From Cenarchaeum symbiosum A (GTDB taxonomy: Archaea; Thermoproteota; Nitrososphaeria; Nitrososphaerales; Nitrosopumilaceae), in NCBI GenBank assembly GCA_000200715.1, contig DP000238.1, positions 380,832 through 444,831 of the forward strand: a stretch of DNA of 64,000 nt. Direction: 5' to 3'. The notes under the pieces are model-generated. The model was not told the DNA's origin and made no database searches. It saw only the letters and a program-made list of their open reading frames with translations. Below, piece after piece: positions 45,664 to 64,000 of the stretch; position 1 is the stretch's first letter, and the number at the start of each line of letters is the position of its first letter. The position numbers and the translations under genes are program-made.

Positions 45664-46450
45664 TCACATTCCGAACAGGGATCTAAAGAAGCCGATTATT
45701 GCATCCAGGATGCCCTCGCCGGGTTCTGTCTCCGGGCCCGCATCGGCAGGCTCCATGGCGGGCGAATCCGGCTCCATCTCGGGCTCTGCCACGGCGGGCT
45801 CCGGATCCATCTCCGGGGGAACCTCGGGCTCGGATGCGGGCGGCTCGGGCTCTGCCGCGGGCTCTGGCTCTGCTGCCGCAGGCTCGGGCTCCGGATCCAT
45901 CTCGGGCTCTGCCGCAGTCTCTGTTTCGGGCAGTGATACGGATACCGGTTCTGTCTCGGATAGTATCGTGTATGATCCCCTTTCATGGGACGCGAGCAGC
46001 AGGCCCTGGTTGTCGCGCAGCATTATCGTCATCCTGCCGGAGAAGCCGTCCTCGAAGGGTATGCTGATCTCCTCAAGCGATCCGCCTTTTGCGGAATAGG
46101 ACGCCCCTCCGGATATGGCAGATGACATGTCACATGTGTGCACCCTGTCGGATGCGGTCATCTCGCCCTGGCACTCCTTGCCTATGAACGCGCCAAGCCT
46201 GTTGTAGTATACCTTCGCTGCTATACCCTCCGCGTCGGATAGTATCATTTCCATGTCATAGACGGTAGTCCCCCCGGGTGTCAGAACGGGGGCTATGCCC
46301 ATGGCTACCCCCTGTTCAAGGCGTATCAGGGGTAAATTCGGAACATCCTCGGCCCCGGTAAAGGTGAACGATACGTCATAGCCCAGGCTGTTCCCGCTTA
46401 TGGATACGCCGCTTCTGCTGCCGCCACCGCCCCCTCCTCCTCTGGGACTC
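45664..46450 (-). other. C-terminal anchor-like module of the giant protein
   Basis: In protein order: PRGGGGGGGSRSG linker; a ~130-aa domain with VYYNRLGAF, GKEC and HTCD (C-x12-C); IPFEDGFSGRMTIMLRDNQG; a ~75-aa stalk of Pro/Glu/Ala; and a terminal ILDAIIGFFRSLFGM. Every element recurs in the protein at 25.0-27.2 kb. Confidence 0.8.
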
Positions 46451-49400
46451 GGCTGGGGCGCCGGTTCAGGCGGCAGCACGGGTGGAGTCTCGTCTTCAGG
46501 AGTTGATCCGCGTTCGTCCAGTCCGGGCGCGTCCGAAGATGAGAGCCTCACGTCGACGCGCACCTTCTCGGATACTGCCGGGGCGTCTGACTTCCTGTCT
46601 ACGTTGACTATTGCATCTCCACGAGTCAACAGGCTTGGCGCGTCCGATGATGATAGACTCACGCCCACGCCTGCCCTGTCTGATACTGCCGGGGTCTCTG
46701 TCTCCCTGATCATACCTGAGATTGCCGAGTCCCCGCTAGTTGTCAGCCCAGGAGTATCTGCAACTGAGAGTTTCACGCCGATGCCTGCCTTGTCCGATAC
46801 TGCGGGCTCGTCGGGCGCCATTCTCATGCCGCCACTCGGGGCCAATCCGCCATCGCCCAGCTCCGGCGTATCTGAAACCTGCAGCTCTGCACCGATGGTC
46901 ACCCTGTCCGATACTGCGGGCTCGTCGGGCGCCATTCTCATGCCGCCACTCGGGGCCAATCCGCCATCGCCCAGCTCCGGCGTATCTGAAACCTGCAGCT
47001 CTGCACCGATGGTCACCCTGTCCGATACTGCGGGCTCGTCGGGCGCCATTCTCATGCCGCCACTCGGGGCACTCGCGCCATCTGCCAGCTCCGGCGTATC
47101 TGAAACCTGCAGCTCTGCACCGATGGTCACCCTGTCCGATACTGCGGGCTCGTCGGGCGCCATTCTCATGCCGCCACTCGGGGCACTCGCGCCATCTGCC
47201 AGCTCCGGCGTATCTGAAACCTGCAGCTCTGCGCCGATGGTCGCCCTGTCCGATACTGCGGGCTCATCAGGCGCCATTCTCATGCCGCCACTCGGGGCAC
47301 TCGCGCCATCACCCAGCTCCGGCGTATCTGAAACCTGCAGCCCTGCACCGATGGTCACCCTGTCCGATACTGCGGGCTCATCGGGCGCCATTCTCATGCC
47401 GCTGCCCGGGGCGGTCGCACCATCGCCCAGAACCGGCGCATCTGAAACCTGCAGCTTTGCACCAAAGCCCGAGCTTTCCGATACGCTCGGGGCATCCGAC
47501 TCATCGATTATGTTCACGCCCTCGACTGCCGACTCACCGCGTGTCTCCAGGCTGGGCGCATCCGAGGATGAGAGCCTTGCGCCGACTCCTGCCCCGTCGA
47601 ATGCGGCAAGCCCGTCTGCCGCGACCAAGTCAGTTGTATTCACGGCAGCTAGTATGCGAACAGGGTGCGTGCCCAGCTGATACCAGTGGACTGCGCCGAG
47701 CTGGGTAAAGGGATGGTCCGTAAAGAATATGCGCAGGCCGTCGGAGGAGAACGCCAGCCCGGTGGGGCCCCTGATCTTCCCCGCCACGCTGAAGGATCCC
47801 GTGTATTCCGCACTGCCCACATCGTATGCAGAACCAAGCTCATACCTGTTCACGCGGTCTGCGGCTCCGCTTAGTATGAACATCAAACGGCCGTCATCCG
47901 AGAATGCCACCTCCGTGGGATCCTCCCCTTGAGCAGCCACGCTGAAGTTTGCCCCAAGGGAGTCGGCCGGAATGGATCCGCCCAGCTCGTACTGCCCCGC
48001 AAGACTGTATTCATACACGGCATCTTCTGCGGTGCCCACGACAAAGAGCCCCTCCCCGTCTGGCGTAAACGCAATACCGTTGGGGGATGCCTCGGATCCG
48101 CCAACGGAAAAGGATCCGTTGAGGGAGTGCGTCCCGGTAAGGTTGAGGGGGGATGCCAGGTCGTATCTGTGCACGCTGCCGCTCTGCCTGCCCACGACAA
48201 AGAACGAGCTGCCGTCGGCCGAAAAGTCCACGTCCCGGGGCCTGTTGTCTTCGGCGGTGGTGTTAAAGAATCCGCGGTACGTGGCAGTCGACAGGTCAAA
48301 CGGCTGGTCCACCGTGTACCTGTATACCGCCCCCCTGCCTATCCCCGAGACCAGCATGGCGGTGCCGTCAGACGAGAACGCCACTCCCGTGATCCCGCCC
48401 TCTTGCAGGACGAACCTTCCCGTGGGTGGGCTGTCAAAACTGTACGGGCCGTAGAGCTCGTATTCGTGGATGGAATTGGCGGCAGAGTCCGTTATGAATA
48501 CAAGCCTGCCGTCGGCCGAGAATGCCAGATCCGTGGGTGTGCCCGAATCCACTGCGTCCAAAGATCCCGTGTACGAGTGCCCTGAGAGATTAAACGCATT
48601 ATCCAGCTCGTACCTGTGCAGCGAACCCGAGTCCGTTCCCGTTATGAACATGAGTGTGCCGTCGGCAGAGAACTCGACGCCCTGGGTGCTGTTCTCCTGG
48701 CCTGACACGTCAATGGAGACTCCGCTGTATATTGCAGTGCCGATGTCAAAGGCCGTGCCCAGCGTATACTGGTGGACTGCATCGCTGATCTGCCCCGCTA
48801 TAAACATCTGCAGCCCGTCGGGGGAGATGGCAATCCCCCGGGGCGACGGTGCCTCCGGCCGCACCCGGAACGTATCGCCCGTCGGAGTGGCGCCAACTAT
48901 GCTATACGGCTCTGCCAGCCTGTAGGCGTGGACGGTGTCGGCCGTCCCGCCGAGCACCAGCATCAGCCTACCCCCGTCTGCAAGGGCCAGCGCCACGGGC
49001 GCTATCCCCTGCGTTCCAAGGGAGTCGCCCGTGTATGCGGCGGTAGCTGTATCATAGGCCTCGGACAGGTTGTACTGGTGCACGGCGGCAGAGACCGTCC
49101 CCACAACCAGCATGCGCGTGCCGTCGGGAGAGAATGCCGCGTCCCGGAGGTCGCCCTCCTGGGCCGCCACATTCAGCGCGCCGCCGTATGCGGGCAGGGG
49201 CAGAGCAAACTGCCGCGGGAACCTACCGCCGCCCTCGCCGCTTAGCGCGCCGGCATCAAAGTGCAGCCGGGCGCTTGCATAGCCGAGTATCTCCACCAGG
49301 CCCTCCCTGGCCAGGCTGAATGAGACTGTATCATTGCCGCCTGTGCTTGCAAGCCCCGACAGCGCCAGCCCGGAAGTTTCATTGCCGTCCCTTATGTGGA

Positions 49401-52400
49401 TTCTTGACGCGTTTACCGTAGAGTGGTCGATGGGCTGATCAAAGGTAATGTGCAGCGTGCCCGCGCTGTCTACCTCTGCTAAGAGCAGCACTGGGATGGC
49501 GGGCGGCACCGCCGATGCACTGTCGGATATCTGCGGCGCATCCCGGGGAACGGCGATAGGGGGTAGATCAACCGGGTGTGTGCCCAGCAGGTACCAGTGG
49601 ACTGAGTCGGTGTCTTGTTCGGTAGTGAACATCCGCAGGCCGTCGGAGGAGAACGCCAGCCCGGTGTGGGCGCTGCCCTGCCCGCCCACATTGAAGGAGC
49701 CCGTGTATTCTGAGGTGCCTATCCCGTGGGCGGAACCGAGCCCGTACCTGAGCACAGAGTTTCCTGCGTCGCTTGCCGCGAACATGACGCGGCCGTCGGG
49801 TGAAAAGGACACCGCCGTGGGGCTGCCGCTCTGCCCCCTGACACTGAAGGATCCTGCAAGGGAGTTGGCCGGGTCGGAGTCGACAAGCTCGTACGGTCCC
49901 TCGAGCCTGTATTCCTGCACGGCATCCTCGGCAGTTCCCACAATGAACAACCCCTCCCCGTCTGGCGTGAACTCAAGGCCGGTGGGGCCCGACTCGGAAT
50001 CGCCGATGAAAAATGATCCGTTTAGCGAAGGATCTGTTATGTTGAATGGCGATGCCAGGTCGTACCTGTGCACACTGTCGCTCTGCCTGCCTATTATGAA
50101 TACAGAGCCGCCGTCTGCTGATAACTTCACGTCCCTCAAGTTGTTGTCCTGCGCGGAGACACTAAAGGTTCCAATCGATGCGGGTGCCGACAGGTCAAAT
50201 GGCGAATCCAACTCGTAGCCGAGCACCGCGTCCCTGACGTTTCCCGATATCAGCATGATTGTGCCGTCATCCGAGAATGCAACACCCGTGGGCTCCCCGT
50301 CGGGCAGGTCGAACGCTCCCGTGGGCGGGCCGTCGAAACTGTACGGGCCGTCCAACTCGTATTCGTTGATAGTATCAGGCCCAGAGTCTGATATGAATAC
50401 ACGCCTGCCGTCTGTTGAGAACGCCACCTCGGTGGGCACGTCCGTATCCTTGCCCACGTGCACAGACCCTGTGTACGAGTGCCCCGAGAGATCAAAGGCG
50501 CCGTCCAGCTCATATCTGTGCAGGGACAGGGAGTCTGCTCCTGTTATGAACACAAGCGTTCCGTCAGCCGAGAATGCGACGCCCTGGGGCCTGCCCTCCT
50601 GCCCCGATACGTCCATGGAGGATCCGCTGTATGCTGCCGTGCTGATATCAAAGGCCGTGCCCAGCAAATACTGGTGCACTGCATCGCTGCCGGACCCGAC
50701 TATGAAGAACCGCCGTCCGTCGGGGGAGATGGCAATACCCCTTGGCGCCTGTTCTTCCTGATCCACCAGTAATGTCTCCCCGGACGGGGCGGCGCCGCCC
50801 ACGTCGTAGGGCACAGCCAGCCTGTATGCATGGACGGTGTCGTCGGCCCCGCCGAGTACCAGCAGCAGCCTCCCGCCGTCTGCAAGCGCCAGGGATACGG
50901 GGGCTATCCCGGTTGTCGCAAGGGAGGTGCCCGTGTATGCGGCAGACGTCACGTCATGGGCTCCGCGCAGGTCGTACTGGTATATGGTATTGCTGCCAGT
51001 TCCGGCAACTAGCATGCGCATGCCGTCGGCCGAGAATGTCACGGCCTGGGTTATATCCTCCTGTTCCCTCACGCTGAACTCGTCCCTGTACGCGGGCAGG
51101 GGCAGAGCAAACTGCTGCGGGAAACTCCCGCCGTCCTCGCCGCTTAGCGCGTCAGCATCAAAGTGCAGCCGGGCTCTCGTATACCCGAGCACCGCCTCCA
51201 GGCCCTCCCGGTCCAGGTCGAAGGAGACGGTCTCATTGCTGCCTGAGCTTGCAAGCCCCGACAGCGCCAGCCCGGCGGTTTCATTGCCGTCCCTTATGTG
51301 GATCCTCGACGCGTTTACCGTAGAGTGGTCGATGGGCTGATCAAATGTAATGTGCAGCGTGCCCGTATTGTTTACCGCTGCCAAGTGCAGCACAGGGATG
51401 GCGGGCGGTGATGCTGATGCGGTGTCGGATACCTGCGGTGCATCCCGGGGAACGGCGACAGGGGGCAGATTAACCGGGTATGTGCCCAGCAAGAACCAGT
51501 GGACTGAGTCTGTGTCTTGCTTAGTGACGAACATGCGCAGGCCGTCGGAGGAGAACGCCAGGCCTGTCTGGATCCCGTCCTGCCCATCGACGCTAAAGGA
51601 GCCCGTGTATGCCGCGGTGTCTATTCCGTGGGCGGAACTGAGCCCGTACCTGAGCACGGCGTTTCCTGCGTCGCTTGCAGCGAACATGACGCGGCCGTCG
51701 GGTGAAAAGGACACCGCCGTGGGGTTGTCACTCTGCCCCCTGACACTGAAGGATCTTGCAAGGGAGCTGGCCGGATCGGCGCCGACAAGCTCGTACGGGC
51801 CCGCAAGCCTGTATTCCTGCACGGTATCCTCGGCAGTTCCCACAATGAACAACCCCTCCCCGTCTGGCGTGAACTCAAGGCCGGTGGGGCCCGACTCGGA
51901 ATCGCCGATGAAAAATGATCCGTTGAACGAAGGATCTGTTATGTTGAACGGGGATGCCAGGTCGTACCTGTACACGCTGTCCCTCTGCCTGCCTATTATG
52001 AATACAGAACCGCCGTCTGCTGATAATTCCACGTCCCGGACGTTGTCGTCCTCGGCGGAGACGCTGAAGGTCCCGATGGATACGGGTGCAGACAGGTCAA
52101 ACGGCGAATCCAGCTCGTAGCCGAAGACTGCGTCCCTGACGTTTCCCGATATCAGCATGATTGTGCCGTCATCCGAGAACGCAACACCCGTGGGCTCCCC
52201 GTCGGGCAGGCCGAATGTTCCCGTGGGCGGGCCTGCCAGGCTGTACGGTCCGTCTAGCTTGTATTCGTTGACTGTATCGGCCCCAGAGTCCGATATGAAC
52301 ACGCGCCTGCCGTCTGGTGAGAACGCCATCCCCGTGGGCACCCCCGTGTCCTTGCCCACATGCAGGGATCCCGTGTACGAGTGCCCCGAGAGGTCAAAGG

Positions 52401-55400
52401 GATCATCCAGCTCATACCTGTGCAGGGACAGGGAGTCCGCCCCGGTTATGAACATCAGGGTGCCGCCGGCCGAGAATGCAACATCCTGGGATCTTCCATC
52501 CTGCTCTGCCACGCTAATGGAATCCCCGCTGTAAACTGCCGTGCTGATGTCAAAGGCCGTGCCCAGTGAATACTGGTGCACAGCATCGCTGCCGGCCCCG
52601 ACTATAAAGATCCGCAGCCCGTCGGGGGAGATGGCCATCCCCCTTGGCGCCTGTTCTTCCTGTCTAACCTGGAATGTCTCCCCCGACCGGGTGGCGCCGC
52701 CCACGTCGTAGGGAACAGCCAGCCTGTATGCATGGACTCTATCGTCGGTCCCGCCGAGTACCAGCAGCAGCCTCCCGCCGTCCGCCAAAGCCAGCGCCAC
52801 GGGGCTTATCCCCGTCGTCGCAAGGGAGGTGCCCCTGTATACTGCAGACGTCACGTCATGGGCCTCCCGCAGGTTGTACTGGTGCACGGAATTGCTGCCC
52901 GACCCGGCAACTAGCATGCGCATGCCGTCGGCCGAGAACGCCACGCCCTGGGCGCTGCCCTCCTGCCCGCCCACACTGAACTCGTCCCTGTACGCGGGCA
53001 GTGGCAGCGCAAACTGCTGCGGGAAACTCTTCTCAAAGTTGCTGCTCAGCGCGCCTGCATCAAAGTGCAGGCGGGTGCTTGCATATCCGAGTATCTCCGC
53101 CAGCCCCTCCCCGGCCAGGTTGAAGGAGACGGTCTCGTTGCTGCCCAAGTTCGCAAGCCCCGACAGCGTAATCCCGGCAGTTTCATTGCCGTCCCTTACG
53201 TGGATTCTAGACGCGTTTACTGACGAGTGGTTGATGGGCTGATCAAACGTGACATTGAGCATCCCCGTCTTGTCTATTGCCGCCGAGAGCAGAACGGGGA
53301 TGCCGGGAGCCACTGCGGATGCGGCATCGTATACCTGCGGGGTGTCGCGCGCATCTGCGGCCGAGAACAGATCAACCGGGTACGTGCCCATCTGATACCA
53401 GTGTGCGCTGCCGCTGCCTAGCACGACTCCCGGCGCGTTAGTAAAGAACATGCGCAGGCCGTCGGGGCTGAACGCCAGCCCTTCTGGGTTGTTGCCCTGC
53501 TGCGCCACCCTGAAGGATCCTGCATATTCCATGCTGCCCACATCATAGGGCGAGCCAAGCTCGTACCTGCTTACGTGTTTTGCGGCCAGACTCAGCACGT
53601 ACATGACGCGGCCGTCCCCCGAGAAGGACACCCCCGTGGGATTCTCGCCCTGCTGCGCCACACTGAAGGAGCCCACAAGGGAATCGGACGGGGTGGAGCC
53701 GGACAGATTGTACGGCCCGGCAAGCCTGTATTCATGCACGGCATCTTCTGCGGTTCCCACGACGAACAGGCCCTCCCCGTCTGGCGTAAATGCAATGCCG
53801 CTGGGGGCCGACTCGGCATCGCCCACGGAAAAGGATCCTCTGCGGGTGGGAGGCGGGTCGGTATCATAGGGGGATACTAGCTCGTACTCGTGCACCCTGT
53901 CTCTCTGCTTTCCTACGATGAAGATGGATCCGCCATCCGTCGAAAAGACCACGTCCTGGGGGGAGCCGTCGGCGTCGGATATGGAAAAGGAGCTGAGGAA
54001 CCCGGACGTCGACAGATCAAACGGCTGGTCCAGCGTGTACCTGTATACCGCCCTCCTGTCAACCCCCGTGATTAACATGTGGGTGCCGTCTGCCGAAAAC
54101 GCCATTCCTGTGGCCGATTTATCAAGTGGTGCCTGGGTTCCCGTGGGGGGGCCGTCGAAACTGTACGGGCCGTCGAGCTCGTACTGGTGTATGGCGCCAG
54201 AAGAGTCCGGCATGAATGCAACCCTGCCTCCTGCCGAGAACGCCAGGCCGGCTACTGCGCCCGCGTCTCTCGCGTCCAGGGATCCCGTGTACGAGTGCCC
54301 AGAGAGGTCAAAGGCGCCATCCAGCTCGTACCTGTGCAGCGATGCCGAGCCCTGGCCAGCTATAAACATGAGCCTGCCGTCGGCCGAGAATGCGACGCCC
54401 TGGGGGCTGCCCTCCCGGCCCGATACGTCGATGGAGACTCCGCTGTATGCCGCCGTTCCTATGTTAAAGGCCGTGCCCAGGGAATACTGGTGCACGGCAC
54501 CGCCGCCCGACACTATGAATATACGCAGCCCGTCGGTGGAGACGGCCATTCCCCGGGGCGCGGGTGCCTCCGACTGTACCATGAACGTATCCCCCGTCAG
54601 GGCGGCATTGACTATCTCGTAGGGCTCTGCCAGGCTGTACGCATGCACGGTGTCATTGTCGAGGATCAGCATCAGCCTCCCGCCGTCAGCAAGAACCAGG
54701 GCCACGGGGTCTATCCCCGCCGTGGCGAAGGAGGCGCCTGCATACTCGGCGGACGTCACATCATGGGCCTCCGTCAGGTCATACTGGTGCACGGCGCTGC
54801 TGTTCGTACCTGCGACTAGCATGCGCGTCCCGTCGGGCGAGAATGCGACGCCCTGGGGGCCGTTCTGCTGCGCCGACACATTCAACGCTCCCCCGTACCT
54901 GGGCAGGGGCAGAGCAAACTGTTCCGGGAAACTTGTGCCGTTCTCGTCGTTTAGCGCGTCCGCGTCAAAGTGCAGCCGGGGGTTTGCATAACTGCTTATC
55001 TCCTCCCGGCCCTCCATGGTCAGGCCAAAGGAGACGGTGCTGCCGGTGCCGGAGCTTGCAATATTCACCTCCGACAGCGTGATTCCGTCTGCGTCGTTGC
55101 CGTCCCTTACGTGGATCCTTGACGCGTCTACTGTAGAGTGGTTTATGGGCAGGTCAAACACAATGTCCAGCATGTTCGCGTTGTTGATGGAGGCGGAGAG
55201 CAGCACGGGGCTGGGGGGACGCTCGGGAACCTCTATTATGAGTTCGGCTGTAGCGCCGTCGTCCACACCGGGTGTGCTCCTGCCAACTGCAACCGCGTCA
55301 CCTGCCATGCCGCCGTCATCTATGCCCGGCGCATCGCCTTTTGATATCTTTACCATGCGGGCCGTCGTGGCGCCGTCGTCCACGACGGGCGTGCTCTTTG

Positions 55401-58400
55401 CAATTGCATCTGTTCCTAGAACGGCTGCCGCGCCGTCGTCCACGACGGGCGTGCTCCTGGCAATTGCATCTGTTCCTAGAACGGCCGTGGCGCCGTCGTC
55501 CACGACGGGCGTGCTCCTGGCAATTGCATCTGTTCCTAGAACGGCTGTAGCGCCGTCGTCTACACCGGGCGTGCTCCTCGCAATTGCGTCGCCTAAGATA
55601 ACGGCTGCCGCATCGTCGTCATTGATGCTCGGCGCATCATCTTCCATTATAACGGCCAGCTTTGCCGTTTGCGGGCTGTCAGACACGCCTGGCGCATCAC
55701 CTGCGCTTATCCGCTCTATTCCAGCTGTCGGCATGCTGACGTTCAAATCCGGGGCGTCACCTGCCAGCACGTGGATGGGCACGGGGCCCGCCAGATCAAA
55801 CAGGTATACCAGATCCCTTTGCTGCCCAACAAAGAACAATCTCGAGCCGTCCTCTGAAAACGCAATTCCCCGGAGATCGTTTTCAAGCATCCCCACGTTG
55901 ATCAATCCCGTATACACGGCGGTCGAAAGATTGTACGCAGCGGTCATATCGTACCTATGTATGGAATCACTCGAGACCCCCGTCATGAACAGCCTCTTGC
56001 CGTCGGACGACAATGCAAGCCCGGTGGGATTGGTATCCCTTGCAAGTACATTGAGGGATTCTACATAGGCAGTGGTATTGTCAAGAGAATACGGGTTGCT
56101 TAGGATATAGTGATGTATTAACCGGTCCGTCTCGTCTATCATAAACAGGTCCGTCCCGTCAGACGAGAACCTAATTGCCGAGGGGCTGGTTACCGCCGCG
56201 TCTCCCGATGGCGCGTTTGCCGCGCTGCCGGTGATAAAGCTGCCTGCAAGCTGGGCCGTGGATACGTCAAATGCCGTGCTCAGACTGTATGTATGAATTG
56301 CCCGGCCGGTAACACGATCTGGATTAATGCTGGCGGAGGGCACGTCCCATCCCGCCAAGAACATCAGCGTCCCGTTGGGTGAGAACTCCATTGCGTTTAC
56401 GTTGGTGTCCTGGGGGCGAATGCTGGGCGAGTCATCCGACTGCACGGAGGTATGCAGGTCGTACGGCTGGCGGAGGGTATAGTCATGGACCATGTCCCGT
56501 AGGTTGTTGAATACTAGCACCGAGCCGCCGTCATTGCTTACGGATATGTCACTCGGAGTGGGATTACTGCCGTCGGTCACCGCAATGACCGCGGCGCGGG
56601 CAGACGAGGTTACATCATAGGGTGATGTCAGGTTGTACGTCTCTACGTTGTTGTTTCGGGACCCGACGATGAACATCTTTCTGCCGTCTCCAGAGAACGC
56701 CATATCGTTGGAATTGGGCTCGTCGTTGAACACCTCAGAGTCTATAAACAGGGAGCCCTTCAGGGTGTACGGCGTTAAAAGGTCGTACCTGTGCACAGTC
56801 TCGGTGTTATCCACTATGAAGAGCCTGTGCCCGTCTGACGAGTATGCAAGCCCCACAGGATTCAGCCCGTCCTGTATGCTAAACGGCGCCTCCACGGCGC
56901 CGGATATATCAAACGGGCTAGAAAGGTTGTATTCCTGTATAAAGCCGGGGTTTTCCACTGCAAGCAGCATGATGGTCCCTTCGGGGCTGAATACCACGTC
57001 CATCTGCGCATTGTTCTGCGCTGTAGTTATCTCGTACGTGTCGTTTTGCACGGCCGATGTTATGTTGTACGGAGTATCGAGTGTATACGAGTATACGTTC
57101 TGCCCGTCTCGCCCGGTGGTAAACATCCAGAGGCCGTCAGCGGAGAATTCCACGTCAAAGGGGCGATCGCGGGTGAGGCCAGGGGCAATGGCCGTGGTAT
57201 AAGAGTCTGCGGCTGCAGCAGTCGTCACAGCATAGGGGACTGCCAGGTCGTACGATTGTACGGTTCCCGCAGCATGAGTGGAGATGAACATCTGCAGGCC
57301 GTCAGAGGAAAATTCAATCCCCGTCGGGTTCCTGCCGGGCCCGTCCGGGTTGTCGTCCCGGTGGTACAGGTTGAAGGTGGGACCGTTACCCGCCCTGTCC
57401 CGGGCTACATCGTACGCTGCGCCAAGATCATATCTGTGCACTTCATCCCTCTGCGTGCCCGTGACAAAGAGCAGCCTCCCGTCGGCAGATGCCGCCATCC
57501 CCTCCGGGTTGTTGTCCTGGCTCCGGACCAGCAGGGATCCCACATACCCCGCGGTGGATATATCGTGCGGCTCGTCTATTCCGTACATGTACACCCTGTC
57601 GTCTTCTCCGCCGAGCACCAGCATGTTGCGGCCGTCTTCTGAGACTGTGACCCCGCGGGGCAAATCATCCTGTAATACCGTGCTAAAGTTTCCCGCATGG
57701 ACGGGCTGGATGGTTATGTCATATGGGCTTGACAGGTTGTACTGTTGTATGGCGCCGTTGTCCGCCCCCGATAGGTACAACCGGGTGCCGTTGCGGCCAA
57801 AGTCAACCCCCGTGACCAGGCCATCCTCGGCCGCGCCAAAGCTGCCCCCGGGTACGGGGGCGGGACTGAAGCCAAACGGGGTCGCCAGTGCATACTGGTG
57901 TATGTTTCCCGAGCCGCCGGCGACGAACAGACCGAGTCCGTCTGCGGAGAATGCCAGCCCGCGGGGGTCCTCCTCCTGGGCGTTCACGTTGTGCGAGCCG
58001 TCAATTCTTGCCGAGGATATGTCGTAGGGCTGTTCGAGCACATACCGGAATATAGTATTCTGGTCGAGACCCACCGTGATCATTATCCTGCCGTCCGCCG
58101 AGAATGCAAGCCCCTGCGGCGATCCCTCGGTGTTGTTGAGGTTTATTGATGCCGTGTCCAGCCCGTACGGGTACAGCGAATCCGGGAGCCTGTATCCTAT
58201 ATCGGGCAGTCCCTGCCCGAGCGCCCCGATTTCGACCCGCAGCCGGGGATCCGCGTAATCCCGCACCAGGTCCAGTTTGTTCCCGTCCAGCACATAGCGC
58301 AGACTGTTATCCACGGCCTGCTCAAACTCGCCGATGGACAGGGGTATCCGCCCGGCTGGCGCATACCCGTCGGCGATGCTGATCAAGCCGTGTTCTACAT

Positions 58401-61400
58401 TGCCTGCGTTCACCAATCCGTCAAAGGTTATCTCCAGTACGCCGCTGCTGTACAGCACGGTGGAAACGACCTGCCGCGCGGTCGCCACTATCCCGTCTAC
58501 GCCAGTGTGCTCTGCGCCGTCGCTCACTACGGGCGCACTTGTCCCTTCTGCAACATGCTTTCCCTCCACACGGGGCGCCCCATCGTCTGCAATGCCCGGC
58601 GCATCATCTCCTGATATTGTGCCCATGCGGGCTGTCGTGGCCCCGTCGCTAACTCCGGGCTTACTTGTCCCTTCTGCAACATCCTTGCCCATTACTTTTG
58701 GCTTGCCGCCGTCTATAACGCCTGGCGCATCATCTCCTGATATTGTGCCCATGCGGGCTGTCGTGGCGCCGTCGCTAACTACGGGCTTACTTGTCCCTTC
58801 TGCAACATCCTTGCCCATTACTTTTGGCTTGCCGCCGTCTATAACGCCCGGCGCATCATCTCCTGATATTGTGCCCATGCGGGCTGTAATGGCGCCGTCG
58901 CTAACTACGGGCTTACTTGTCCCTTCTGCAACATCCTTGCCCATTACTTTTGGCTTGCCGCCGTCTATAACGCCCGGCGCATCATCTCCTGATATTGTGC
59001 CCATGCGGGCTGTAATGGCGCCGTCGCTAACTACGGGCTTACTTGTCCCTTCTGCAACATCCTTGCCCAATACTTTTGGCTTGCCGCCGTCTATAACGCC
59101 TGGCGCATCATCTCCTGTTATGTTCAGGTCCCGCGGAGCCGCGGCCCTAATGCCGATCGGATGCGTGCCGAGCTGATACGAATAGACGGCGTCGGCGCCC
59201 GCATCGGTAAAGAACAAGCGCAGGCCGTCGGAGGAGAAAGCCATCCCGGTGGGGGACCTGCCCTGATCCCTCACACTGTATGATCCCGCGTATTCCGCGG
59301 TGTCCGTGTCATGCGCAGAGTCGAGCTCGTACCTTAGCACGGCGTCTCTACTGTCGCTTATAGTTAGCATGACATGCCCGTCGGGTGAAAAGTACAAGCC
59401 CGTGGGGTTGTTGCCCTGATCCCTCACACTGAAGGATCTGACAAGGGATTCGGACGGCCTGGAGCCTCCCAGGTCGTACGGGCCCGCAAGGTTGTACCTG
59501 AACACCGTGTCTTCTGTGACGCCCACTACGAATAGCACTGTACCGTCTGGCGTGAATGCAAAATCGGTGGAGGCCGTCTCGGATCCAAACACGGAAAAGA
59601 ATCCGGCGACGGGGGGCGCAGTTATGTTGTAGGGGGATGCCAGGTCGTACCTGAGCACGCGGTCGAACTGCCTGCCTATGATGAATAGCGAGCTGCCGTC
59701 TGCAGAAAAGTCCACGTCCCGCGGCGAGCTGTCCTGAAAGCTGGTGCTAAATGATTCAATGGGCACCGGCGCCGACAGGTCAAACGGGGGATCCAGCGCA
59801 AACCCGTACACCATGTCCCCGCCGTTCCCCGAGACGACCATGACGGTGCCGTCCGCCGATAACGCCATTCCGGTGGGTTCTGAATCTGACAGCCCGTACA
59901 TGGAAACGGGGGGGCCGCCAAAGCCGTACGGGCCGTCGAGCTCATACTCGTGGATTGCTCCAGAGTTCATATCAGATATGAATACAAGCCTGCCGTCGGC
60001 CGAAAAGGCCAGGCCGCTGGGCGTCCCCAAATTATTCCTCATGAACAGGGACCCCGCGTACGTGTGCCCCGACAGGTCAAAGGGATCATCCAGCTCGTAC
60101 CTGTGCAGCGAATCAGAGCTTGTCCCCGTTATGAACATGAGTGTGCCGTCTGCCGAGAATGCCACGCCCTGGGCGGACCCCTCCTGCCCGGCTATGCTGG
60201 CGGAATCCCCGCTGTAAGCTGCCGTGCTGATGTTAAAGGCCGTGCCCAATTCATACTGGTGGACTGCATCGCTGAGCTGCCCCGTTATGAACATCCGCAT
60301 CCCGTCGGGGGAGACTGCAATGCCCCGGGGCGCCTGTTCCTGCGGCCGAACGGGCAACGTGTCCCCGGTCTTGGCGGCACCGCTTATGTCGTAGGGCTCT
60401 GCAAGGCTGTACGCATGCACTCTGTCGGCAGTCCCTCCAAGGACAAGCAGCAGCCTTCCCCCGTCCGCTAGCTCCAGCGCCACGGGATCTATCCCCGGAG
60501 TCTCAAAGAATATTCCCGTGTACTCTGCGGACGTCACGTCATAGGCTTTTGGCAGCTCGTACTGGTGCACAGAGCTGTTCCCAGTACCTGCCAATAGCAT
60601 GCGCATGCCGTCGGGCGAAAATGCCACCCCGTGGGCGGTCTCCACCTGCCCTGCCACACCAAACGCGCCCCCGTATGCGGGCAGGGGCAGCGCAAACGGC
60701 ACGGGGAATGGATCCCCCGTGGCGTCCCTGAGGGCATCGGCATCAAAGTGCAGCCGGGGGCTCGAATAACCGAGTATCTCCCGGAGGCGCTCGTCTGGCA
60801 GCATAAAGGAGATGGTGTTGTTGTCGGCAGGATCCGCAAGTTCCACCTCCAGCAGCGTCAGGCCGGCGGTGGAGTTGCTGTCCCTCACATGGATCCTCGA
60901 CGCGTTTACCGTCGAATGGTCTATCAACTGGTCGAACGCGATGCTCAGGACGCCATCCGCGTCGGCGGTTACAGAGGTCACCCTGGGCCTTGGGGTGGTA
61001 ACGGCAGATGCGCCGTCGGAGAATAGCGGACTGTCCGAGGCTGCACCGGACAGGACGATCCCGACCGGGTACGTGCCCAGCTCATACCAGTGGATCGAAT
61101 CGGTGCCCGGGTCGGTAAAGAACAAGTGTAGGCCGTCTGCCGAGTATGCAAGCCCCGTGGGGGATCTGCCCTGATTCTTCACGCTAAATGAGCCCGCGTA
61201 TTCGGCGGTGTCTATATCGTAGGCGGCTCCAAGCTCGTACCTGAGCACAAAGCCCCTGTCGTCGCTTGCAACAAGCATGACATTCCCGCCGGGCAAAAAG
61301 TACACATCAGTAGGGCGGTCCCCCCGTGCCCCGAGATTGAAGGATCCGACAAGGGAGTCGGTGGGCACGGAGCTATTCAGGTCGTATGGGCCCGCAAGGC

Positions 61401-64000
61401 CGTACTCGTACACGGTATCCCCCGCAAAGCCCGTGATGAACAACCCCTCCCCGTCTGCCGTGAACGCAAGGCCGTTGGGGGTTCCCTCGGATCCGCCGAC
61501 GAAAAATGATCCGTTGGGTGTAGGCGCGGTTATGTCGTAGGGTGATGCCAGGTCGTACCTGTATACACTGTTGGTTTCCCTGCCTATTACAAAGACCGAG
61601 CCGCCGTCGGCCGAGAGGTCCACATCCCGGGGGTTCGTGTCCTCGCCTGCTGTGCTAAATGATCCGGCGGACTCTATCCCCGACAGGTCAAACGGCGGAT
61701 CCAGTGTAAACCCGTACACCGCATCCCCGCCGTTCCCCGAGATCAGCATGAGCGTCCCGTCTGCCGAGAACGCCGCCCCTGTGGGTGCCCCGTCGGGCAG
61801 GCCGTACGAGTCAGTGGGGGAGACATCAAAGCTGTACGGGTTGTCGAGCTCGTATCTGTATATGGAATCAGAGGAGGAATCCGATATGAATACAAGCCTG
61901 CCGTCAGACGAGAATGCCAGGTCGGTGGGCATCCCCCCGCCGGCCCGCAAGTCCAGAGACCCCGCGTACGAGGCACCCGCGAGATCAAAGGAGCTATCCA
62001 GCTCGTACATGTGCAGCAAATCCGAGATTGTACCGGTTAGGAACATGAGGCCGCCTCCGGCGGAGAATGCAACGCCCTGGAGGTTGGCCTCCTGGTCAAC
62101 CACGCTGACGGATTTCCTGTATGATGCAGTGCTCAGTTCAAAGGCCGTGCCCAGGGAATACTGGTGCACGGAATTGCTGCCCTGTCCAGTCACAAATATA
62201 CTCAGCCCGTCGGGGGAGATGGCGACACCGCGGGGCTCATGCTCCCGCCCCGCCGGCGAGAGTATCCCCCCTGTAGGGGCTGCAGTGCTTATGTTGTAGG
62301 GATCTGTCATCTCGTAGGCGCGAACCGGGCCGGCGAACCCGCCAAGGGTTATCAGCAGCCTCCCGCTGTCTGCGAACGCCAGGGACACGGGGTCCAGCCC
62401 CGGCGTCTCAAGGGATGTGGAGTACTCGGCGGCCTCTATATCATAGGCCCTGGGCAGGTCGTACCGGTGTATGGAGTCGCTGCCCGTACCTGCAACTAGC
62501 ATGATCATCCCGTCGGGCGAGAATGCTACGCCCTGCGGGGTCCGGTCCTGTGCCGCCACGTCAAACGAGCCCTTTTGTGCGGGCAGGGGCAGCACAAACG
62601 GCTCGGGGAATATCCCACGGTCTGTAGCGTTCAATGCGCCTGCGTCAAAGTGCAGCCTGGGGTTTGAATGGTTTGATATCTCCCCCCGGCGGTCCGCGGA
62701 CAGCCTGAACGAGACGGTATTCTCGGCGCCAGGTGCCGCAAGCTCCGACTGCACCATAGTCAGCCCTGCCGCCCCGCCGTCCCTTATGTGGATTCTCGAT
62801 GCGTTTACCGTCGAGTGGTCGACGGGCCGGTCAAATACAATGCTCAGAATGTCCGCCAAGTCTAAAACGGCCGAGACCAGCACGGGGCTCTCCCCCCGGG
62901 GTGGAATGGCCGCAGCATCCGAGTTAACATCCGGCGCATCGCGCGCCATTGCGTCAAACATGACTATGCGCAGCACGTCATCATCCAGGACGGGCCCGTC
63001 CCTTGGATTTAGCTTCCCCGGTATCACGGCATCCCCGAGGATTCCCACGCTTGGCGCATCGCCTGCCGTTACTATCCTGGTTATGCGGGATATCTCGCCC
63101 ACGCCGGGCGCGTCGCGCGCCCTTGCCACCTGCTCCCCGTCCTTCAGGGCAACATCCGACAAGGCGAGCCTGTCGCCAGGTATCAAATGCGCAATGAATC
63201 TGGTGGGGACCTCGACTGTTATCTCTTCAAGCATGGGCCCGTCGGAACCGTTCAAGGCAGCCGTGCGCCTGGCGGGATACCCCCCGAACTCAAAGCTAGC
63301 CACCGCCCTGGTGCCCCCGTCGAGGCCAAACAGCGTGCGGCCGTCATCCGAGAACGACAGGGCCTGGAGGGACTCTGTCCCCGTGAGGAAGCTTCCCACG
63401 CGCGTGGCGTTGATTATATTGTACGCGGCATCCAGGGCATAGTGGTGCACCTGGCCATCGTCATCGGAGACATACAGCGCGCCGCCTGTGCGTGAAAAGT
63501 ACAAATCTGTCGGAGTCAGGCCGTCGAGCTCAAGACCCGCCTCGTATGCGGCCCCGGTTACATCGTACGGCGTGCTTAGTCCATACTGATGTATTGTACC
63601 GCCGGCGCCCCCGGCGACGACAATTTTGGTGCCGTCATCAGAGAGGGCGACCCCCACCGGGTTGATATCGCGCAGCGATACGTTGAGCATGCTGTGCACG
63701 GTGATGCTGCTGGTGTCGTACTCGCCGGGCAGCGTGAGCCTGTGGACGAAGGGGGGGCTGCTGCCCACCGTGTACATCTCTGCCCTGCCCGCGGGAAAGT
63801 ACACCCCCTTGGGGGACTCTTGCCATCCGGTGGTCTGGGTTCTCTGCAAGGTCGCGGTGGACAGGTCGTATTCCGTCGGCATATTGTACCAGCGCACACT
63901 CCCCTGGGAATCGTCGGTCACGTACAGGCTGGATCCCCCGGGCACAATGAACATGCCGCTCGGTGAGTCTCCATGAACATCGAGCGCGGCAAGATTCTGC
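45664..64000 (-). CDS. Giant modular beta-propeller surface protein (N-terminus outside window)
   Basis: One uninterrupted frame of 6,111 codons, still open at the window edge; ATG 63954 is inside a blade and is not the start. Order from the N-terminal side: at least five blades; a linker; then seven modules, each a ~110-aa cadherin/SwmB-like domain (FDQPIDHSTVNASRIHIRDG ... FALPLPAY) followed by ~50-aa YVTN/NHL-like blades (P-x-G-V-A-F-S-x-D-G, V-H-x-Y-x-L, F-D-x-S-T). My count is ten blades per module, except fifteen in module 3. Linkers carry DAPxVxD signatures. The C-terminus has a poly-Gly linker, a C-x12-C domain, a Pro/Glu stalk, and a final amphipathic GFFRSLFGM. It is almost certainly extracellular, perhaps for adhesion or host contact (inference). 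No frameshift is visible. Confidence 0.88.
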   Translation of the reverse strand, partial: QNLAALDVHGDSPSGMFIVPGGSSLYVTDDSQGSVRWYNMPTEYDLSTATLQRTQTTGWQESPKGVYFPAGRAEMYTVGSSPPFVHRLTLPGEYDTSSITVHSMLNVSLRDINPVGVALSDDGTKIVVAGGAGGTIHQYGLSTPYDVTGAAYEAGLELDGLTPTDLYFSRTGGALYVSDDDGQVHHYALDAAYNIINATRVGSFLTGTESLQALSFSDDGRTLFGLDGGTRAVASFEFGGYPARRTAALNGSDGPMLEEITVEVPTRFIAHLIPGDRLALSDVALKDGEQVARARDAPGVGEISRITRIVTAGDAPSVGILGDAVIPGKLNPRDGPVLDDDVLRIVMFDAMARDAPDVNSDAAAIPPRGESPVLVSAVLDLADILSIVFDRPVDHSTVNASRIHIRDGGAAGLTMVQSELAAPGAENTVSFRLSADRRGEISNHSNPRLHFDAGALNATDRGIFPEPFVLPLPAQKGSFDVAAQDRTPQGVAFSPDGMIMLVAGTGSDSIHRYDLPRAYDIEAAEYSTSLETPGLDPVSLAFADSGRLLITLGGFAGPVRAYEMTDPYNISTAAPTGGILSPAGREHEPRGVAISPDGLSIFVTGQGSNSVHQYSLGTAFELSTASYRKSVSVVDQEANLQGVAFSAGGGLMFLTGTISDLLHMYELDSSFDLAGASYAGSLDLRAGGGMPTDLAFSSDGRLVFISDSSSDSIYRYELDNPYSFDVSPTDSYGLPDGAPTGAAFSADGTLMLISGNGGDAVYGFTLDPPFDLSGIESAGSFSTAGEDTNPRDVDLSADGGSVFVIGRETNSVYRYDLASPYDITAPTPNGSFFVGGSEGTPNGLAFTADGEGLFITGFAGDTVYEYGLAGPYDLNSSVPTDSLVGSFNLGARGDRPTDVYFLPGGNVMLVASDDRGFVLRYELGAAYDIDTAEYAGSFSVKNQGRSPTGLAYSADGLHLFFTDPGTDSIHWYELGTYPVGIVLSGAASDSPLFSDGASAVTTPRPRVTSVTADADGVLSIAFDQLIDHSTVNASRIHVRDSNSTAGLTLLEVELADPADNNTISFMLPDERLREILGYSSPRLHFDADALRDATGDPFPVPFALPLPAYGGAFGVAGQVETAHGVAFSPDGMRMLLAGTGNSSVHQYELPKAYDVTSAEYTGIFFETPGIDPVALELADGGRLLLVLGGTADRVHAYSLAEPYDISGAAKTGDTLPVRPQEQAPRGIAVSPDGMRMFITGQLSDAVHQYELGTAFNISTAAYSGDSASIAGQEGSAQGVAFSADGTLMFITGTSSDSLHRYELDDPFDLSGHTYAGSLFMRNNLGTPSGLAFSADGRLVFISDMNSGAIHEYELDGPYGFGGPPVSMYGLSDSEPTGMALSADGTVMVVSGNGGDMVYGFALDPPFDLSAPVPIESFSTSFQDSSPRDVDFSADGSSLFIIGRQFDRVLRYDLASPYNITAPPVAGFFSVFGSETASTDFAFTPDGTVLFVVGVTEDTVFRYNLAGPYDLGGSRPSESLVRSFSVRDQGNNPTGLYFSPDGHVMLTISDSRDAVLRYELDSAHDTDTAEYAGSYSVRDQGRSPTGMAFSSDGLRLFFTDAGADAVYSYQLGTHPIGIRAAAPRDLNITGDDAPGVIDGGKPKVLGKDVAEGTSKPVVSDGAITARMGTISGDDAPGVIDGGKPKVMGKDVAEGTSKPVVSDGAITARMGTISGDDAPGVIDGGKPKVMGKDVAEGTSKPVVSDGATTARMGTISGDDAPGVIDGGKPKVMGKDVAEGTSKPGVSDGATTARMGTISGDDAPGIADDGAPRVEGKHVAEGTSAPVVSDGAEHTGVDGIVATARQVVSTVLYSSGVLEITFDGLVNAGNVEHGLISIADGYAPAGRIPLSIGEFEQAVDNSLRYVLDGNKLDLVRDYADPRLRVEIGALGQGLPDIGYRLPDSLYPYGLDTASINLNNTEGSPQGLAFSADGRIMITVGLDQNTIFRYVLEQPYDISSARIDGSHNVNAQEEDPRGLAFSADGLGLFVAGGSGNIHQYALATPFGFSPAPVPGGSFGAAEDGLVTGVDFGRNGTRLYLSGADNGAIQQYNLSSPYDITIQPVHAGNFSTVLQDDLPRGVTVSEDGRNMLVLGGEDDRVYMYGIDEPHDISTAGYVGSLLVRSQDNNPEGMAASADGRLLFVTGTQRDEVHRYDLGAAYDVARDRAGNGPTFNLYHRDDNPDGPGRNPTGIEFSSDGLQMFISTHAAGTVQSYDLAVPYAVTTAAAADSYTTAIAPGLTRDRPFDVEFSADGLWMFTTGRDGQNVYSYTLDTPYNITSAVQNDTYEITTAQNNAQMDVVFSPEGTIMLLAVENPGFIQEYNLSSPFDISGAVEAPFSIQDGLNPVGLAYSSDGHRLFIVDNTETVHRYDLLTPYTLKGSLFIDSEVFNDEPNSNDMAFSGDGRKMFIVGSRNNNVETYNLTSPYDVTSSARAAVIAVTDGSNPTPSDISVSNDGGSVLVFNNLRDMVHDYTLRQPYDLHTSVQSDDSPSIRPQDTNVNAMEFSPNGTLMFLAGWDVPSASINPDRVTGRAIHTYSLSTAFDVSTAQLAGSFITGSAANAPSGDAAVTSPSAIRFSSDGTDLFMIDETDRLIHHYILSNPYSLDNTTAYVESLNVLARDTNPTGLALSSDGKRLFMTGVSSDSIHRYDMTAAYNLSTAVYTGLINVGMLENDLRGIAFSEDGSRLFFVGQQRDLVYLFDLAGPVPIHVLAGDAPDLNVSMPTAGIERISAGDAPGVSDSPQTAKLAVIMEDDAPSINDDDAAAVILGDAIARSTPGVDDGATAVLGTDAIARSTPVVDDGATAVLGTDAIARSTPVVDDGAAAVLGTDAIAKSTPVVDDGATTARMVKISKGDAPGIDDGGMAGDAVAVGRSTPGVDDGATAELIIEVPERPPSPVLLSASINNANMLDIVFDLPINHSTVDASRIHVRDGNDADGITLSEVNIASSGTGSTVSFGLTMEGREEISSYANPRLHFDADALNDENGTSFPEQFALPLPRYGGALNVSAQQNGPQGVAFSPDGTRMLVAGTNSSAVHQYDLTEAHDVTSAEYAGASFATAGIDPVALVLADGGRLMLILDNDTVHAYSLAEPYEIVNAALTGDTFMVQSEAPAPRGMAVSTDGLRIFIVSGGGAVHQYSLGTAFNIGTAAYSGVSIDVSGREGSPQGVAFSADGRLMFIAGQGSASLHRYELDGAFDLSGHSYTGSLDARDAGAVAGLAFSAGGRVAFMPDSSGAIHQYELDGPYSFDGPPTGTQAPLDKSATGMAFSADGTHMLITGVDRRAVYRYTLDQPFDLSTSGFLSSFSISDADGSPQDVVFSTDGGSIFIVGKQRDRVHEYELVSPYDTDPPPTRRGSFSVGDAESAPSGIAFTPDGEGLFVVGTAEDAVHEYRLAGPYNLSGSTPSDSLVGSFSVAQQGENPTGVSFSGDGRVMYVLSLAAKHVSRYELGSPYDVGSMEYAGSFRVAQQGNNPEGLAFSPDGLRMFFTNAPGVVLGSGSAHWYQMGTYPVDLFSAADARDTPQVYDAASAVAPGIPVLLSAAIDKTGMLNVTFDQPINHSSVNASRIHVRDGNETAGITLSGLANLGSNETVSFNLAGEGLAEILGYASTRLHFDAGALSSNFEKSFPQQFALPLPAYRDEFSVGGQEGSAQGVAFSADGMRMLVAGSGSNSVHQYNLREAHDVTSAVYRGTSLATTGISPVALALADGGRLLLVLGGTDDRVHAYRLAVPYDVGGATRSGETFQVRQEEQAPRGMAISPDGLRIFIVGAGSDAVHQYSLGTAFDISTAVYSGDSISVAEQDGRSQDVAFSAGGTLMFITGADSLSLHRYELDDPFDLSGHSYTGSLHVGKDTGVPTGMAFSPDGRRVFISDSGADTVNEYKLDGPYSLAGPPTGTFGLPDGEPTGVAFSDDGTIMLISGNVRDAVFGYELDSPFDLSAPVSIGTFSVSAEDDNVRDVELSADGGSVFIIGRQRDSVYRYDLASPFNITDPSFNGSFFIGDSESGPTGLEFTPDGEGLFIVGTAEDTVQEYRLAGPYELVGADPASSLARSFSVRGQSDNPTAVSFSPDGRVMFAASDAGNAVLRYGLSSAHGIDTAAYTGSFSVDGQDGIQTGLAFSSDGLRMFVTKQDTDSVHWFLLGTYPVNLPPVAVPRDAPQVSDTASASPPAIPVLHLAAVNNTGTLHITFDQPIDHSTVNASRIHIRDGNETAGLALSGLASSGSNETVSFDLDREGLEAVLGYTRARLHFDADALSGEDGGSFPQQFALPLPAYRDEFSVREQEDITQAVTFSADGMRMLVAGTGSNTIYQYDLRGAHDVTSAAYTGTSLATTGIAPVSLALADGGRLLLVLGGADDTVHAYRLAVPYDVGGAAPSGETLLVDQEEQAPRGIAISPDGRRFFIVGSGSDAVHQYLLGTAFDISTAAYSGSSMDVSGQEGRPQGVAFSADGTLVFITGADSLSLHRYELDGAFDLSGHSYTGSVHVGKDTDVPTEVAFSTDGRRVFISDSGPDTINEYELDGPYSFDGPPTGAFDLPDGEPTGVAFSDDGTIMLISGNVRDAVLGYELDSPFDLSAPASIGTFSVSAQDNNLRDVKLSADGGSVFIIGRQSDSVHRYDLASPFNITDPSLNGSFFIGDSESGPTGLEFTPDGEGLFIVGTAEDAVQEYRLEGPYELVDSDPANSLAGSFSVRGQSGSPTAVSFSPDGRVMFAASDAGNSVLRYGLGSAHGIGTSEYTGSFNVGGQGSAHTGLAFSSDGLRMFTTEQDTDSVHWYLLGTHPVDLPPIAVPRDAPQISDSASAVPPAIPVLLLAEVDSAGTLHITFDQPIDHSTVNASRIHIRDGNETSGLALSGLASTGGNDTVSFSLAREGLVEILGYASARLHFDAGALSGEGGGRFPRQFALPLPAYGGALNVAAQEGDLRDAAFSPDGTRMLVVGTVSAAVHQYNLSEAYDTATAAYTGDSLGTQGIAPVALALADGGRLMLVLGGTADTVHAYRLAEPYSIVGATPTGDTFRVRPEAPSPRGIAISPDGLQMFIAGQISDAVHQYTLGTAFDIGTAIYSGVSIDVSGQENSTQGVEFSADGTLMFITGTDSGSLHRYELDNAFNLSGHSYTGSLDAVDSGTPTDLAFSADGRLVFITDSAANSIHEYELYGPYSFDSPPTGRFVLQEGGITGVAFSSDGTAMLVSGIGRGAVYRYTVDQPFDLSTATYRGFFNTTAEDNRPRDVDFSADGSSFFVVGRQSGSVHRYDLASPLNLTGTHSLNGSFSVGGSEASPNGIAFTPDGEGLFVVGTAEDAVYEYSLAGQYELGGSIPADSLGANFSVAAQGEDPTEVAFSDDGRLMFILSGAADRVNRYELGSAYDVGSAEYTGSFSVAGKIRGPTGLAFSSDGLRIFFTDHPFTQLGAVHWYQLGTHPVRILAAVNTTDLVAADGLAAFDGAGVGARLSSSDAPSLETRGESAVEGVNIIDESDAPSVSESSGFGAKLQVSDAPVLGDGATAPGSGMRMAPDEPAVSDRVTIGAGLQVSDTPELGDGASAPSGGMRMAPDEPAVSDRATIGAELQVSDTPELADGASAPSGGMRMAPDEPAVSDRVTIGAELQVSDTPELADGASAPSGGMRMAPDEPAVSDRVTIGAELQVSDTPELGDGGLAPSGGMRMAPDEPAVSDRVTIGAELQVSDTPELGDGGLAPSGGMRMAPDEPAVSDKAGIGVKLSVADTPGLTTSGDSAISGMIRETETPAVSDRAGVGVSLSSSDAPSLLTRGDAIVNVDRKSDAPAVSEKVRVDVRLSSSDAPGLDERGSTPEDETPPVLPPEPAPQPSPRGGGGGGGSRSGVSISGNSLGYDVSFTFTGAEDVPNLPLIRLEQGVAMGIAPVLTPGGTTVYDMEMILSDAEGIAAKVYYNRLGAFIGKECQGEMTASDRVHTCDMSSAISGGASYSAKGGSLEEISIPFEDGFSGRMTIMLRDNQGLLLASHERGSYTILSETEPVSVSLPETETAAEPEMDPEPEPAAAEPEPAAEPEPPASEPEVPPEMDPEPAVAEPEMEPDSPAMEPADAGPETEPGEGILDAIIGFFRSLFGM
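46790..47450 (-). repeat. 114-bp tandem linker array (six units)
   Basis: Six units with exact 114-bp spacing; the TCGGGCGCCA-type landmark falls at 46811, 46925, 47039, 47153, 47267 and 47381. Each encodes 38 residues containing LQVSDTPELxDG and GGMRMAPDEPAVSD. Units are almost identical at the nucleotide level, so the array expanded recently or is homogenised. Confidence 0.9.
47640..49500 (-). repeat. Propeller module 7 (domain + 10 blades)
   Basis: The HSTVNASRIHIRD landmark lies near 49396-49435. The beta domain is followed by ten blades ending HWYQLGTHPV. It is about 1.9 kb from the matching point of module 6. Confidence 0.85.
49560..51400 (-). repeat. Propeller module 6 (domain + 10 blades)
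   Basis: Landmark near 51298-51332; ten blades ending HWYLLGTHPV. It is very close to module 5 in sequence, blade by blade. Confidence 0.85.
51460..53300 (-). repeat. Propeller module 5 (domain + 10 blades)
   Basis: Landmark near 53197-53235 (HSSVNASRIHVRD); ten blades ending HWFLLGTYPV. Confidence 0.85.
53370..55210 (-). repeat. Propeller module 4 (domain + 10 blades)
   Basis: Landmark near 55107-55142 (HSTVDASRIHVRD); ten blades ending HWYQMGTYPV. Blades 2, 3 and 5 are slightly shortened. Confidence 0.85.
55375..55610 (-). repeat. 60-bp tandem linker array (four units)
   Basis: Four 20-residue units, GTDAIARSTPVVDDGATAVL and close variants, repeat with exact 60-bp period between modules 3 and 4. 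They are flanked by DAPGIDDG and DAPSINDD linkers. Confidence 0.9.
55770..58490 (-). repeat. Diverged propeller module 3 (degenerate domain + 15 blades)
   Basis: The beta domain is poorly conserved (FDGLVNAGNVEHGLISIADG replaces the usual landmark). I count fifteen blades, more varied in length and sequence than in other modules and with no matching blade order. Confidence 0.75.
58500..59125 (-). repeat. 126-bp tandem linker array (five units)
   Basis: The GCATCATCTCCTG landmark recurs at 58601, 58727, 58853, 58979 and 59105, an exact 126-bp period. Each unit encodes 42 residues such as DDAPGVIDGGKPKVMGKDVA followed by EGTSKPVVSDGA. Four units are nearly identical; the fifth, C-terminal one is diverged. 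Confidence 0.9.
59140..60990 (-). repeat. Propeller module 2 (domain + 10 blades)
   Basis: Landmark near 60888-60925 (HSTVNASRIHVRDSN); ten blades ending YSYQLGTHPI. Confidence 0.85.
61050..62890 (-). repeat. Propeller module 1 (domain + 10 blades)
   Basis: Landmark near 62788-62820 (HSTVNASRIHIRDGG); ten blades ending HWYELGTYPV. Further N-terminal, 63260-64000 encodes at least five more blades of an incomplete module, with a DAP-type linker between (62900-63240). Confidence 0.85.

Follow-up and report, generated by a model that had tools for sequence, protein, structure and literature searches.

A giant propeller protein of Cenarchaeum symbiosum A and the five-blade quantum of its blade arrays

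Among the described systems closest to the locus reported here, the archaeal surface-layer protein of PDB 1l0q has a seven-bladed propeller, and tachylectin-2 is a five-bladed propeller. The former protein is credited to Jing et al. 2002 in PMC6697440, and a five-bladed propeller has also been described in a phage receptor-binding protein, that of phi11 (PMC4901313). Propellers that arose by amplification of single blades and are highly repetitive have been reported (PMC9218822), and in Apilactobacillus kunkeei several giant extracellular proteins, Giant1-5, account for ∼6% of a small symbiont genome (PMC12863079). Propellers as such, propeller-bearing surface proteins of archaea and giant surface proteins belong to known kinds; as far as checked, what is new here is that this blade type keeps to a strict quantum of five, builds giant tandem modules and takes up so large a share of the genome, along with the C-terminal tail.

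Gene and module architecture

The gene was found in a window of 64,000 nucleotides (positions 380,832 to 444,831 of contig DP000238.1, assembly GCA_000200715.1) from Cenarchaeum symbiosum A, a sponge symbiont whose genome is a single contig of 2,045,086 bases. All features of this gene lie on the minus strand and are given in window positions. The part of the giant ORF within the window (45664..64000) has its stop at 45664-45666 and spans 6,111 codons, still open at the edge of the window, in agreement with the original prediction of an open frame exceeding 6,100 codons. With the flanking genome included, the stop-to-stop frame comprises 6,886 codons, and the upstream continuation to an ATG at the window equivalent of ∼66201, the first plausible start, yields a protein of 6,845 aa with the N-terminus MIRAKRSAGILMVMAAAALAGAAAFPEAYGH. 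This N-terminus is signal-peptide-like (judged by eye), and the complete protein is acidic (D+E 903 vs K+R 385).

Blades were counted using a blade HMM over the complete protein, which resolved eight arrays of 10, 10, 10, 15, 10, 10, 10 and 10 blades in protein order. The array that straddles the window edge is represented by its C-terminal part, M0 (63249..64000; blade HMM), with the remainder upstream (L002). Six of the seven complete modules, M1, M2 and M4-M7, have exactly ten blades each, as had been counted by hand, and M3, the fourth array of the protein, has 15. Pfam matches above cut-off for the whole protein were SGL and Lactonase, with WD40 in M7 and in the M3 stretch; together with the PDB matches described below, these leave no doubt that the blades belong to the propeller family. 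The known-profile matches and the D-A-B-C strand pattern in the models identify the fold as a beta-propeller (YVTN/SGL/WD40-like). A search of PHROGs gave weak, unnamed matches only.

Each complete array in the window follows an Ig-like beta domain of ∼100 aa, which carries the invariant motif HS.V.AS.IH.RD and whose strands are seen in the model; the five-blade blocks that follow were delimited by the blade HMM. M1 comprises its Ig-like domain (62587..62889; invariant motif and model strands), block a with blades 1-5 (61822..62586) and block b with blades 6-10 (61054..61833), and M2 the corresponding domain (60685..60990) and blocks (59914..60684 and 59146..59925). The Ig-like domain of M3 (58165..58479; approximate limits, by eye) is followed by blocks a (57400..58167), b (56605..57375) and c (55768..56604) of the 15-blade array. 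In the remaining modules the Ig-like domain and the two blocks lie at 54907..55212 and 53380..54906 (54148-54906, 53380-54162) for M4, at 53002..53301 (a domain also present in the model) and 51463..53001 (52231-53001, 51463-52242) for M5, whose array was modelled whole and as a half, at 51100..51399 and 49561..51099 (50329-51099, 49561-50340) for M6, and at 49198..49497 and 47659..49197 (48430-49197, 47659-48441) for M7. Some modules are separated by tandem spacer repeats of 126, 60 or 114 bp, namely an array of 126-bp (42-aa) repeats, ...DDAPGVIDGGKPKV..., at 58514..59121, one of 60-bp (20-aa) repeats, ...TPVVDDGATAVLGTDAIARS..., at 55370..55620, and one of 114-bp (38-aa) repeats at 46791..47463 (5.9 copies, 95% identity).

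Blade spacing in the ten-blade modules of the window is 49-55 aa, with a short step of 47-48 aa from blade 5 to blade 6. Equivalent positions in M4-M7 are 634 aa apart, matching the landmark interval of ∼1.9 kb noted earlier. Two motifs said to recur in every module were found to be less constant: the unusual form of blade 2, LALADGGRLLLVLGG, is found unaltered in M5 and M6 and with slight variation in the other modules, and the ending of blade 10, HWYxLGTxPV, is replaced by YSYQLGTHPI in M2 and HWFLLGTYPV in M5.

Across the six typical modules (M1, M2, M4-M7), the nearest neighbor of every blade (60/60) was the same-numbered blade of a different module, and whole modules were therefore copied, as proposed from the grouping of blades by position. 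M5 and M6 share 83% identity over the propeller part (85% at the DNA level), and the other modules share 53-64%. M1 resembles modules in two other genes (75%) more closely than its own neighbors, and the M1-M2-M3 pattern of 10, 10 and 15 blades reappears as the last three arrays of a 5,299-codon frame; multi-module stretches were thus copied between genes. The copied blades are already divergent (25-30% identity), and blades i and i+5 are no more alike than other pairs, so that there is no sign of a recent origin of the ten-blade modules from a single doubled five-blade block. The gene grew by the copying of whole Ig-plus-propeller modules, and propeller arrays gain or lose five blades at a time.

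The five-blade quantum in this genome and beyond

The blade type fills ∼31 frames, the longest of 12,016 codons. Together these frames amount to 100,537 codons, 14.7% of the genome. Within these frames, ∼1,200 blades fall into 120 runs, 110 of which have a length that is a multiple of five (5: 23; 10: 61; 15: 24; 20: one; 25: one); the binomial P is ∼1e-64 at a 20% chance, a figure that overstates independence since the runs share ancestry. Under a stricter counting rule, 101 of 130 runs were multiples of five. Some off-quantum runs lie at frame breaks or locus ends, including a broken-frame pair of 3 + 7 blades. This pair (contig positions 676301-683608/683563-685434), together making ten blades, is among several overlapping neighbor frames that resemble split genes (the others at contig positions 859578-875345/875183-877651; 764062-768948/768747-804797; 533070-534998/523798-533127), which may stem from sequencing error, a recent break or frameshifting. 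Homologous runs are offset by exactly 0, 5 or 10 blades, as in pairs of 20 and 15 blades at 82% identity, 20 and 10 at 46%, and 10 and 5 at 47-49%, and all run pairs at ≥45% identity (185/185) are in phase.

Outside this genome, 149 of 193 complete runs are single five-blade runs, the prevailing form in other archaea, in bacteria and in marine phages. Strict counts at virus loci gave 102 runs of five blades, 28 of ten, two of 15 and eight of other lengths (n = 140), and 47 of 53 runs in other genomes had exactly five blades. The first counts of 6 and 11 blades in phages were mostly miscounts caused by a leading partial blade, and disappeared under the strict rule. The blade family is also present in a Nitrosopumilus MAG, and in Nitrosopumilaceae relatives the five-blade runs stand alone. 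By these counts the five-blade rule holds across archaea, bacteria and phages. The step from blade 5 to blade 6 in phage ten-blade runs measures 55 or 39 aa in 28 of 28 cases, compared with a normal 51 aa, with inserts at the junction in L160 and L165 and deletions in L148 and L124.

Several observations were made alongside this survey. Scans of the collection with the whole module, which used only patterns from the beta domain, returned no matches. A genome of the same genus (G001, 3.2 Mb; L070, L071) gave only weak matches, to another, NHL-like blade type; it seems to be without this family and has a tandem NHL-like propeller (FGSRGAGDGQFDDPRSVAYSPSGG). In Reichenbachiella faecimaris, a bacterial frame (L093) contains at least six successive five-blade runs ∼380 aa apart, and in a further genome (G032; L061, L062) this blade type lies beside DVSSVTDMSSMF-type repeats in one protein. 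Hypothetical proteins of Lentibacter phage ICBM2 (L210) and Roseobacter phage CRP-9 (L211) carry this blade type amid phage tail genes, and in ICBM2 the blade genes and those annotated as tail assembly chaperones are interleaved.

On sequence grounds, five blades and not ten are the unit of the arrays. The original prediction took the ten-blade block to be the structural unit, a claim not supported by run lengths that are quantised at five here and in relatives, viruses and bacteria. Each ten-blade run could nevertheless be one ten-bladed ring, the quantum of five reflecting only the size of the copied DNA block. Ten is the commonest run length in this genome, and ten-bladed rings are known, as in the Vps10 domain of sortilin (PMC9356209). 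Moreover, blade spacing at 5/6 shows no marked break in this genome and the linker is ordinary, which counts against two rings; a PYD turn is kept at this linker in 87% of the ten-blade runs, and at true run ends in 4-21%. Runs of 5, 15 and 25 blades of one type are however incompatible with ten-bladed rings, five-blade runs are free-standing in many lineages, homologous runs differ by five, and the phage homologues have insertions and deletions exactly at the 5/6 junction. We consider a single ring of ten blades unlikely, and the structure models below point the same way.

Structure models and ring closure

AlphaFold2 modelling of the M5 module (612 aa) gave a pLDDT of 87.7 and a pTM of 0.78, and blades 6-10 alone were predicted as a compact domain with five blades of strands (pLDDT 93, pTM 0.91). 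In the half model the first D strand was assigned as a strand, which only the last blade of the fragment is free to pair with, and the limits were the same in the 612-aa model. Run lengths, lone five-blade runs and the well-modelled fragment agree on five blades per independent folding unit.

The best PDB matches to the 612-aa model were tandem WD40 proteins with low TM-scores. Among viral models, a 403-aa protein of a Lentibacter phage, whose sequence shows five blades and one weak leading partial match, superposed at TMq 0.40 and TMt 0.61 over about 240-245 residues, the size of one five-blade block. A 564-aa marine-virus match extended over 530 aligned columns at a TMq of only 0.40, as expected for two loosely linked rings rather than one ring of ten. 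The Foldseek list of PDB matches for the half model was taken up by seven-bladed WD40-type proteins at TMq ∼0.5-0.6, which alone is no proof of a five-bladed ring. A profile of the five-blade unit had its best PDB match in 1l0q (E 1.8e-22), the propeller of the archaeal surface-layer protein. A strand-coupling test found signal inside the blocks that was missing at 5/6, and the closure pairs C5-D1 and C10-D6 were not significant.

Based on the size of the phage superposition, the confidence of the half model and the strand assignment at its start, a ten-blade array is most likely two five-bladed rings. Prediction thus favors the pair of smaller propellers that had been named in advance as the outcome contrary to a ten-blade unit. 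Each ring would probably be closed by the first strand (D) of a five-blade block, which would join strands A-B-C of the last blade to make a full sheet. Arrays might instead be open, as a continuous superhelix, or composed of other ring sizes, e.g. 7+8 for the 15-blade array, as modelled for 15-blade WD40-like arrays of another family (PMC9218822). With run lengths at multiples of five, not at 6-9, and a high-confidence half model whose first strand is probably paired, such arrangements are very improbable.

C-terminal cassette, function and known systems

The protein ends with a glycine-run linker (PRGGGGGGGGSRSG; 46402..46455, approximate limits), a beta domain with two cysteines (45817..46401, approximate limits) without a Pfam or NCBIfam match, a Pro/Glu-rich linker (45715-45816) and an amphipathic tail, GILDAIIGFFRSLFGM (45667-45714); the C-terminal 662 aa as a whole had no NCBIfam match. 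This cassette, with an FFRSLFGL-like tail, is shared by ∼30 large proteins, and the FFRSLFGL-type end occurs in most blade frames as well as in proteins that lack such propellers. The cassette is carried by a subtilisin-like protein (L197) devoid of the blade type and by L198, L199, L200 and L201, the glycine run being present in all of L198-L201. Among 60 related genomes there was one weak match to the tail. An archaeosortase-type sorting signal, which consists of a motif, a transmembrane helix and a basic cluster, was considered and rejected, as the tail is a 16-aa segment ending in FFRSLFGM with no basic end. The tail may be an envelope-attachment or export signal, and is a concrete lead for the former.

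The gene, its copied modules, the five-blade quantum and the shared tail are probably best explained by a secreted surface adhesin in which tandem five-bladed propellers alternate with Ig-like domains ahead of the shared C-terminal tail. The putative signal peptide would direct the protein out of the cell, the repeating head module would consist of an Ig-like domain and two tandem five-bladed propellers (three in one case), the 20-42-aa repeats would serve as spacers, and the C-terminal cassette would hold the protein at the envelope. Several features suggest that the giant protein is displayed at the surface and acts in binding: the putative secretion signal, the alternation of Ig-like domains and propellers, the acidic composition, and the kinship both with an archaeal surface protein and with propellers from marine phage tail regions. 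Judged from architecture, the ligand could be the sponge or a glycan. Whatever the ring size, these proteins could serve as building material of the envelope or S-layer and not as host-binding adhesins. Among solved structures, their closest relative is a propeller-containing surface-layer protein of an archaeon, their composition is acidic, and for the expanded S-layer-like proteins of sponge symbionts ammonium concentration or adhesion has been suggested (PMC6790972). We consider this role rather doubtful, as ∼31 strongly divergent frames of very different lengths and orders resemble a diversified repertoire rather than a lattice protein.

On the surface adhesin reading, the giant protein is a candidate means of contact between a sponge-associated archaeon and its host. 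We also propose, tentatively and with less than even confidence, that ∼15% of the symbiont genome encodes lineage-specific giant surface binders built of interchangeable five-bladed units, exported or anchored by the hitherto undescribed FFRSLFGL-like tail and akin to the propellers of marine phage tail regions, i.e. a modular recognition system shaped by recombination. In place of a rare ten-bladed propeller, the analysis offers a rule, that arrays of this blade type are built in multiples of five in archaea, bacteria and phages alike, which provides a testable structural unit and allows the largest proteins of this archaeon to be divided into their parts.

The parallel with Vps10/sortilin, originally drawn because that propeller has ten blades per module, the count of the typical modules here, was not borne out. 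The giant protein has 50-aa YVTN/WD-like blades and a five-blade quantum, the Asp-box ([ST].[DN].G.[TS][WFY]) had 0 strict hits in its 6,845 aa, and Vps10/sortilin was not found among the listed structural matches of the 612-aa model. A sortilin-like ring was set aside as unlikely on the missing Asp-box motif and the five-blade quantum, and the fold matches likewise favor 2 x 5. The archaeal 1l0q protein is secreted, as is predicted for the giant protein, and both carry a propeller together with an Ig-like (PKD) domain, but the giant protein differs in its tandem five-blade blocks, giant size and C-terminal cassette. The phi11 receptor-binding protein and tachylectin-2 have five blades, closure by an N-terminal strand, and sugar or receptor binding; their likeness to the giant protein, whose function is putative, is at the level of blade number and probable closure, without a demonstrated sequence match, while the marine phage homologues have the same blade type. 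Giant1-5 are built of beta-solenoid domains, in contrast to the propellers that here occupy ∼14.7% of the genome. Lastly, the highly repetitive propellers of PMC9218822 share growth by duplication and large blade arrays with the system described here, yet they grow by single blades, whereas the units of copying here are blocks of five and whole modules.
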